A DNA stretch of 64,000 nt, from contig NZ_CM001165.1 of NCBI RefSeq assembly GCF_000213055.1, positions 5,912,945 to 5,976,944 of the forward strand. Reading direction: 5' to 3'. The position numbers and the translations under genes were made by a program. This document shows, piece by piece, positions 24,728 through 26,930 of this stretch. How positions within the stretch are numbered: the stretch's first letter is position 1; every line of letters starts with the position of its first letter. This DNA comes from Streptomyces sp. Tu6071. Its GTDB lineage: Bacteria; Actinomycetota; Actinomycetes; Streptomycetales; Streptomycetaceae. The notes under the pieces were generated by a model. It had not been told where the DNA came from and made no database searches. It was given only the letters and a program-made list of their open reading frames with translations.

Positions 24728-24808
24728 TTCGCCTTACTGATCGTTTCACAATGAGGTCCGTGAGGGACGGGATGCTGGGACGCTCGGCTTCGTCCGTAGG
24801 ATCACTTC

Positions 24809-25294
24809 ATGCCTGCTGACGAACGCGTAACCCGGTCCACGTTCTCCGGTCGTATCCAGCCGATATCAGCTCCTCGGTCCATGCCGGAGCTGCCTCAGCG
24901 GATCTGGTCAGATGAAGACTGGAAGCGGATCCAGCTCGGCTATGCGGCGCGGGACATGGACGAGAAGTGGGACGTCTTCACGGAGGGCGAGGTCGTCTTC
25001 CTGCACCGAAGCTGGACGGGTAACGGAACCTTCGCGGCGACCTTCGCGCCCGTTGATGGCGGTGGATGGCGGATCGACAGTGCCGTAGTCGAACGTGACG
25101 CCGAACGCTACCGAGGAACGGACGATGCCTACGACTGCGTCATGCTTGAGCTGGTGATCAGCGCCATCGTGCTTGGCGAGTCGGCGACAGACCTCCGGAC
25201 GAAGCTGGTCGAGTTGACTCGTCGGGAGTCGGGTTCCGATGCCCCGGCCGGGCTGATTCAGCACAGCGCCCTGGGGCTGCGCTCGGACGCCTAG
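24809..25294 (+). CDS. Passenger gene of the IS5-family element, unknown function
   Basis: A 161-residue soluble protein with no signal peptide. The middle shows a compact alpha/beta pattern with conserved-looking blocks (DEKWDVFTEGEVVFLHRSW, AVVERDAERYRGTDDAYD, LELVISAIVLGE). I recall similar uncharacterised proteins but no function. ATG 24809 lies 72 bp inside the left IS end, and its stop lies 4 bp before the transposase stop on the other strand. The gene is thus enclosed by the inverted repeats and mobilised with the element. It could be a host-interaction, toxin-control or transposition-modulating factor; nothing in the sequence decides. Confidence 0.75.
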   Translation: MPADERVTRSTFSGRIQPISAPRSMPELPQRIWSDEDWKRIQLGYAARDMDEKWDVFTEGEVVFLHRSWTGNGTFAATFAPVDGGGWRIDSAVVERDAERYRGTDDAYDCVMLELVISAIVLGESATDLRTKLVELTRRESGSDAPAGLIQHSALGLRSDA

Positions 25295-25298
25295 CCGA

Positions 25299-26143
25299 TC
25301 ACTCTGGGACCGCTAGACGTCGGATGCAGATCAGGCTGCAGGCCAGTTCGAGCAAACCCTGGTGGAGATCGGCGCGTCGTTCGTAGCGGGTGCGGAGTCG
25401 TTTGAACTGGTGCAGCCAGGCGAAGGCTCGCTCGACGACCCAGCGCACCTTGCCTAGTCCGGAGCCGTGGGCGACGCCGCGTCGGGCTATGACGGGTTTG
25501 ATGCCGCGTTTCCAGAGCAGGCGGCGGTACTTGTCGAAGTCGTAGCCCCGGTCGGCGTACAGACGCCGGGGCTTACGGCGGGGACGTCCCCGAAGACCTC
25601 GAATCGACGGGACGGCATCCAGCAGCGGCAGGAGCTGAGTGACATCGTGCCGGTTGCCACCGGTGAGCGTGACTGCGAGCGGGGTTCCGTCTCGGTCAAC
25701 GATCAGGTGGTGCTTGGAGCCGGGGCGGGCCCGGTCGACGGGCGAGGGGCCGACATGGTCCCCCCTTTGAGGGCGCGGACATGCGACCCATCCACGGAGC
25801 AGTCGTCCAGGTCCAGCAGGCTGGCGCGGCGAAGCTCGGTCAGCAGGGCGGCGTGCAGGCGAGGCCAGACTCCTGCCTCGGTCCAGTCCCGGAGCCGACG
25901 CCAGGCCGTCACGCCGGAACAGCCAACGGTCTCGGTCGGGACATCGCGCCACGCGACACCGGTCCGCAGCACATACATGACGCCGGCGAGCGCCACTCGG
26001 TCGGGAACACGCAGCCGTCCCGGGTGGCGGCGGCGCCGTACGGGAGCAGGCGGCAGCAGCGGGGACACCCGCTCCCACAGGCCGTCAGGAACAAGATCAG
26101 CACGCACTCCGAATACCTTGCCGACCAAGATCGTCAGACACAA
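25299..26143 (-). CDS. IS5-family DDE transposase made by -1 frameshifting
   Basis: Two overlapping minus-strand frames give about 281 residues. The first (26143-25703) has the DUF4096-like start (VPDGLWERVSPLLPP, then RTGVAWRDVP) and the first catalytic Asp in CSVDGSHVRALKGG. The second (to 25299) has Asp in YADRGYDFDKYR and Glu in WVVERAFAWLHQFKRLR. The frames meet at CTC-AAA-GGG-GGG (25771-25760 on the minus strand), where a -1 slip restores KRGDHVGPSPVDRARPGSKHH. Same slip logic as the 7-kb element but clearly a different transposase. Appears functional. Confidence 0.85.
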
Positions 26144-26206
26144 GACCCGCAGCTCAACTCATTCTGAAACGATCAGTTAGAACTCCCAACGGAATGAGCG
26201 TTCGAG

Positions 26207-26705: not shown

Positions 26706-26930
26706 GGAACTTGGCGGGTCGCAAGCAGTCGTCGCCAGCAGATGAGCGCGCATCCCAGGGTGAGGAACGCCTCGTGGATGTCGTCTCGGATCTCCCAGCG
26801 GATGCGCAGGCGGGCGAAACCAGTGCAGGTGAGCGAACGCGCGCACCACGAACCGGCGTTGGGTGCCGAGTCCGAGCCGTGCTCCGTGCTGCGGCGGGCG
26901 ATCAGCATCTGCCTGCCTCCGGCGGTTCGG
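26706..26930 (-). pseudogene. Degenerate C-terminal remnant of another IS5-family transposase
   Basis: Pieces in two frames together read ARRSTEHGS, GLGTQRRFVVRAFAHLHWF and RLRIRWEIRDDIHEAFLTLG, then CALICWRRLL. This is the C-terminal end of an IS5 transposase, with the catalytic Glu replaced (FVVRAF instead of VVERAF). Frameshifts and the lost Glu mark it as dead. It differs from both intact transposases, so it records a third, older insertion. Confidence 0.7.

Follow-up and report, generated by a model that had tools for sequence, protein, structure and literature searches.

Both insertion sequences (IS) that bear passenger genes and cassettes that consist of genes only are already known. 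The ISsaga paper defines a transporter IS (tIS) as an IS with passenger genes unrelated to transposition (PMC3129680), and the term also appears in a review on the IS6 family (PMC7986276). IS231-MIC231 of Bacillus cereus, a member of the IS4 family, has extra genes between its left end and the transposase gene (PMC2266710), and gene-only cassettes (MIC) are named in two of these sources (PMC2266710; PMC3129680). ARG-centred systems, the regulators of which are WYL or Nudix proteins, have been described as a likely defence against ADP-ribosylation by viruses (Iyer et al., 2022, PMC9503650). The literature searched, outside of which lay ISfinder and most subscription journals, contained no mention of an IS5 lineage that exchanges its cargo.

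The element described here is located in the window, i.e., the whole stretch of 64,000 nucleotides from Streptomyces sp. Tu6071 that was analysed. It is an IS5-family element of 1440 bp (24737..26176) with the following features:

24734..24736, no strand: left target-site duplication TTA, identical to the trinucleotide at 26177-26179
24737..24755, plus strand: outer terminal repeat on the passenger (distal) side, CTGATCGTTTCACAATGAG, which is the working left end; found by repeat search and kept in relatives
24797..24802, plus strand: TAGGAT, likely -10 element of the passenger gene, with a similar upstream block in homologues
24809..25294, plus strand: passenger gene of 161 aa (MDEKW...HRSWTG domain), from the list of open reading frames
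25290..25308, minus strand: decayed inner IS end, at the place where plain elements stop, with 10 of 19 mismatches and unrecognisable by its letters
25299..25768 (start approximate), minus strand: second frame of the transposase with the DDE domain (DDE_Tnp_1; NCBIfam transpos_IS5_3), from profile matches
25703..26143, minus strand: first frame of the transposase (PF13340, DUF4096), from a profile match
25760..25768, minus strand: A3G6 run joining both transposase frames, candidate site of -1 frameshifting or slippage
26158..26176, minus strand: outer terminal repeat on the transposase side, CTGATCGTTTCAGAATGAG when read inward, with 0 mismatches to the consensus
26177..26179, no strand: right target-site duplication TTA

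A preliminary description of this DNA had reported ends that match at 18 of 19 bases, bordering TTA on both sides and a mobile unit of 1440 bp. Reinspection bore this out for the 19-mers 24737-24755 and 26158-26176, and a repeat search yielded arms of 23 nt each (24733-24755 and 26158-26180) that are 91% complementary. Equally correct were the convergent 161-residue gene, the end of which (25294) is separated by 4 bp from the transposase stop codon (25299-25301, minus strand), and the assignment as an IS5-family element that encloses a passenger: the gene lies inside both ends, the open reading frame of the second frame scored 139.6 bits against NCBIfam transpos_IS5_3 (cut-off 110), and the Pfam families DUF4096 and DDE_Tnp_1 were above cut-off. 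Target duplications of the form TNA are usual for part of the IS5 family, and the window element combines such a duplication with inverted ends and a DDE transposase. This transposase is split over two overlapping frames (26143-25703 and ~25768-25299), an organisation possibly akin to that of the IS427 group of the family. The frames meet at the A3G6 run, a candidate frameshift or slippage site that 27 of 37 related elements also contain.

Like a tIS, the window element has one transposase and cargo within a single pair of ends and, judged from its sequence, it would count as one, since the passenger is located within the ends and its domain is found elsewhere mostly alone or fused to ADP-ribosylglycohydrolase (ARH) or NUDIX domains. 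It differs in that its IS5 clade is mostly cargo-bearing in our sample, the cargo slot holds many different genes and the inner end has decayed. As in IS231-MIC231, an extra gene lies between one end and the transposase gene, but the lineage is IS5 rather than IS4, and the extra DNA is mostly 3' of the transposase gene. The element has a transposase of its own and is, therefore, no MIC, whereas the small unit of locus L122 described below would be one. A composite transposon is its likely ancestor, as remnants of a second IS are present at the distal end of seven relatives. However, a single IS is left, which is probably immobile alone if its inner end is dead, and the window element is itself no composite transposon, its passenger side consisting of the 19-bp end only. 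Finally, there is a resemblance to the ARG-centred systems of Iyer et al. (2022): fusions with ARH or NUDIX are found among homologues of the passenger domain, one of which is located in a WYL-ARH-NUDIX-DUF262-SNF2 cluster on the Aeromonas plasmid pE31A. Unlike in those systems, the window passenger stands alone, the element contains no ARH, and the protein matches no Pfam family.

The enclosed 1440-bp unit recurs with both ends. A genome search for copies with both ends and the passenger, as proposed in the preliminary description, revealed nine in eight genomes, with the window copy counted; the others are from S. fuscigenes (L043), S. humidus (L056), S. shenzhenensis (L048), NBC_00154 (L051), S. 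hydrogenans (L046), DH12 (L057) and G005 (L013 and L058). The nine measure 1440, 1444, 1433, 1355, 1434 and, in three cases, 1437 bp, except for one that contains further internal DNA and reaches 3863 bp. The target trinucleotides match in six copies (TTA in the window, L056, L048 and L058; TAA in L043 and L057) and are unmatched in three (TCA/TTA in L051; TTA/TAA in L046 and L013). Between recognisable ends, the passenger frame is broken in L056, and the passenger is partly deleted in L051. Two further copies (L042 and L007) have lost the right end, and L009 has the left end only. The existence of further copies excludes a chance origin of the ends of the window element, and the nine copies identify 24737, not 25295, as the working end; counterparts of its terminal repeat are retained in L043, L056, L057, L048, L051, L046 and others.

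Copies with the same passenger are mostly located at unrelated sites. When 56 flanking stretches from 28 elements, including four elements with a lost or approximate end, were compared, a single weak match of 60 bp was found between different elements. In L013, which was compared later, the left flank resembles those of L046 (132 bp, 77%) and L153 (60 bp); thus, the sites of L013, L046 and L153 are not clearly independent. The left flank of the window element matches G010 at 93% up to 24727 and is divergent beyond. Regarding empty target sites, which the preliminary description had suggested to look for in relatives, no clean one was found for the window copy, whereas there is one for L211, a relative of 1693 bp with SMI1-like cargo and TAA on both sides. 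Its joined flanks align at 78% to an uninterrupted gene homologue in G024, with no gap at the junction, and G024 differs there by lacking the element together with one copy of the target.

Searches for the passenger protein detected it in 43 of 392 genus genomes, in 10 plasmid records and at 18 loci of a species-genome collection. A transposase gene adjoins the passenger at 6 of the 30 places retrieved from the genus, the window's own among the 30, and at 7 of the 18 loci of the collection, with remnants in L040 and L044. The protein does not, therefore, always co-occur with the transposase, a point that the preliminary description had proposed to test. Copies ending near 25295 and homologues situated mostly without the transposase had been named there as findings that would refute an enclosed passenger. 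As to the former, the outer ends recur and the working end is 24737. The latter applies to most of the homologues found; it indicates a gene family that extends beyond the element and does not refute mobility.

The exact 15-base core of the end is present in 105 of 382 genus genomes. For end pairs, 121 loci were examined, most of them around ends among the matches listed. Inward-facing pairs were present at 49 loci, 28 of them with matching TNA, and no pair was found at the other 72; as controls, the same 121 loci gave four direct, one outward and zero backwards pairs, none with matching TNA. The inward pairs comprise 17 plain elements (855-900 bp, ~887 bp; 10 with matching TNA), three short ones (two) and 29 enlarged ones (16). 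The number of plain elements is an undercount, as seven more pairs of plain length in G347, G019 and G371 fall outside the 17, and one that was counted as plain, L173, represents the element of L116 and is followed after 650 bp by a third end. Not all enlarged pairs enclose cargo: L207 contains an unrelated insertion, and L162, L189 and L230 are nested or composite. Those without matching target bases include L151, L163, L169 and L180.

About a dozen cargo types besides the window passenger are held by the enlarged elements; they were named by likeness where no Pfam scan was made. Proteins with no assigned family are the 'RLEWWAN' protein (L121, L221, L231, L238 and L152), a protein of 103-119 aa (L196, L205 and L162) and a protein of 180-198 aa encoded upstream of the transposase gene (L217 and L153). 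Others are SMI1/KNR4-like (L211, with 24.8 bits below the cut-off of 25.4; L129 by likeness) or belong to DUF6896 (L194; L186 and L230 by likeness), NTP_transf_6 (L225), GNAT (L237), ABM (L177) or PHP (L156 and L167, at or just under cut-off; L227 by likeness). There are, furthermore, FAD_binding_3 and TetR_C_31 proteins (L150; L184 and L199 by likeness), a 258-aa protein with no Pfam match (L137, with five mismatches in the far end), a 'DIDVEV' protein (L189; L159, where the right end was not found) and a secreted-looking protein of 209 aa (L239). For nine of these types, one or more units had matching TNA. Many 'hypothetical proteins' adjoining IS5 transposases in Streptomyces may, thus, be cargo, and such a status would help to explain the interspecies spread of small orphan genes.

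Several of these units deserve separate mention. Three of 2.7-2.8 kb in three genomes, all with matching TNA (L150:309-3033, L184:1672-4457 and L199:310-3091), carry a divergent FAD-binding monooxygenase-like gene together with a TetR-type regulator. A unit of 436 bp with two ends and TAA on both sides (L122:2196-2631) contains one open reading frame of 103 aa and no transposase gene, and resembles a mobile insertion cassette of this IS5 element family. L210:331-4055 looks like a composite: it encloses LysR and DHDPS-family genes, and its far end retains a remnant of an IS. The DUF6896-bearing element L194 is centred in an inverted repeat of ~298 bp with 100% identity.

A first tree was built from 37 transposases. 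It had 15 from plain elements and three from elements of reverse architecture, which carry the window passenger, on one side, and the 18 remaining cargo rows and L116 on the other. A second tree contained 28 added rows, thus 65 in total, which were chosen by us and include some fragments. Here, a clade of 41 rows (100/99) comprised 32 with cargo, L116, which has a third end and possible cargo, one plain element (the minus-strand copy of L162) and seven rows of unresolved structure. Outside this clade were 16 plain rows, three of unresolved structure, the three of reverse architecture and the cargo rows L189 and L159. Cargo is, thus, also found with transposases of the plain clade (the three reverse-architecture rows and L189) or outside both clades (L159), and the split between cargo and plain elements, with which the first tree agrees, is strong but not absolute in this chosen sample. 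The notion that passengers are uncommon in such elements does not hold for the transposase clade of the window, where 32 of the 34 structure-resolved rows have cargo.

Within the cargo clade, the PHP and SMI1 types are grouped, and the 103-aa, DUF6896, FAD and 180-aa types are not, the number of changes needed on the 65-row tree being three each for the first three of these and two for the 180-aa type. The scattering suggests that cargo and transposase have been reshuffled, and the presence of the same cargo on different branches is compatible with exchange. In four copies (L046:3932-5368, L057:3932-5365, L013 and L058), the window passenger and the distal end are combined with an inverted transposase that belongs to the plain clade, and a third end is located mid-element. 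The passengers of these reverse-architecture copies fall among other IS-borne passengers; thus, the passenger and distal end were kept and the transposase was replaced.

With the elements oriented by the transposase, the outer end on the transposase side has 0-2 mismatches. In the inner end, near position 885, the number of mismatches among the 19 bases is two in L194, four in L186 and L156, five in L177 and 7-10 in the others, where 9-10 means that the end is not recognisable. The inner end is one base short in the 'RLEWWAN' elements (type B), and in the copies with reverse architecture 2-3 mismatches were counted in the middle end. Inner ends are, thus, mostly decayed, and close relatives of the window element hold cargo of other kinds. 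Beyond the distal repeat, 17-24 of 26 bases agree with the IS 3' end in seven elements (L121, L238, L231, L184, L199, L210 and L239), which span four cargo types, and these remnants of a second IS copy suggest collapsed composite transposons. The remaining distal ends share 4-13 of 26 bases with the IS 3' region; the window, with 13, is at the top of this background, so that an origin from a second IS is suggested by the remnants in the relatives and not by the window copy itself.

We consider it likely that the window unit is one transposon of an IS5-family lineage that carries and exchanges cargo, mostly singly. Most likely, such an element goes back to a gene between two copies of the IS, of which one was then reduced to hardly more than its terminal repeat. 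The transposase would act on the outer ends at 24737 and 26176, and, with the inner end beside its stop codon decayed beyond recognition, the IS probably cannot leave without the cargo. The latter, with its own promoter, would be carried for the benefit of the host and not for transposition.

Alternatively, the cargo units could stem from capture via mis-recognised end-like sequences or from fusion with a gene-only cassette (IR-gene-IR) instead of composite collapse. The transposase-less unit of L122 would represent such a cassette, the passenger beside a different, inverted transposase and a third end in L046, L057, L013 and L058 could be read likewise, and in most elements the distal end shows the 19-bp repeat alone. 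Nevertheless, we regard this origin as rather unlikely in view of the IS 3'-end sequence beyond the distal repeat in seven elements with four types of cargo and of the end with an IS remnant beyond the LysR and DHDPS-family genes of L210. The collapse of a composite transposon, which we prefer, would offer a concrete route from an IS to a gene carrier, i.e., a gene is bracketed, one IS copy is lost and the inner end is lost. Possible intermediates of this route are found within one genus, Streptomyces, which makes it testable.

The passenger is under purifying selection in intact IS-borne copies, with dN/dS values of 0.12-0.30 over 36 pairs of nine such copies. The TAGGAT motif is located 6 bp before its ATG, and a block like TCCGTA(G/A/C)GATC..ATG precedes most of the IS-borne and solo homologues printed; given the spacing between TAGGAT and ATG, the transcript is probably leaderless and made from its own promoter. 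The preliminary description had recognised no function for the protein. Indeed, it matched no family in Pfam, NCBIfam or PADLOC, and its structure model (mean pLDDT 89) gave no clear structural match, but the picture is sharpened by fusions of the homologous domain. In Streptomyces, a distant homologue is located C-terminally to an ARH (L062, Pfam 208 bits; L063-L066 by likeness), and on a viral contig (L074) a homologue is N-terminal to an ARH-type domain, by likeness. C-terminally to NUDIX, it is found in L077 (by likeness) and on pE31A of Aeromonas (annotated). On this plasmid of Aeromonas media, a row of annotated genes (L254, 754-8342) encodes WYL, ARH, a fusion of NUDIX with the passenger-type domain, DUF262 and SNF2, and is a candidate ADP-ribose conflict cluster. 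Solo passenger genes had no recurrent neighbour among 15 loci.

The window element contains no ARH open reading frame, and the link to ADP-ribose enzymes concerns homologues of the domain only. Quite possibly, although we would stop just short of calling it probable, the passenger is an accessory or immunity-type protein linked to ADP-ribose, with a part in detecting or undoing the ADP-ribosylation that toxins or phages bring about. The results for the structure model and the varied neighbours of the solo genes speak against such a role. In any case, a domain that has no Pfam entry and is associated with ADP-ribose enzymes is a testable lead in bacterial conflict. The passenger might instead serve transposition or protect the element, for example as a regulator or an antitoxin-like stabiliser, and its retention in nine copies and the selection on the intact ones would suit such a role. 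We deem this improbable: the gene is mostly found alone and its domain fused to ARH or NUDIX, and modulation of transposition in particular is unlikely, given that close relatives have unrelated genes in this slot and that two copies have broken passengers, by frame in L056 and by deletion in L051, between recognisable ends. More broadly, we tentatively entertain the view that this IS5-family lineage of Streptomyces acts as a set of gene shuttles, mostly for a single gene each, in which the inner end is switched off and every copy is thereby forced to bring a gene along, modules are exchanged, the transposase at least once, and the cargo consists partly of small orphan genes of conflict systems, that of the window being linked to ADP-ribose. 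That the window contains a plain IS of ~880 bp with ends near 25295 and 26176 beside an ordinary chromosomal gene, the left repeat being coincidental, would agree with the location of most homologues found away from the transposase and with an inner boundary where plain elements end, but is considered refuted by the nine copies that have this gene enclosed between the outer ends, at mostly unrelated sites, and by the 10 of 19 mismatches of the inner end next to near-perfect outer ends.

The source genome contains one full copy of the element and two diverged fragments elsewhere. The right flank of the window copy contains, at 26726-26917, degraded remains of a further transposase of IS5-like type, with 40% over 70 aa; thus, the element is located in an insertion-rich spot.
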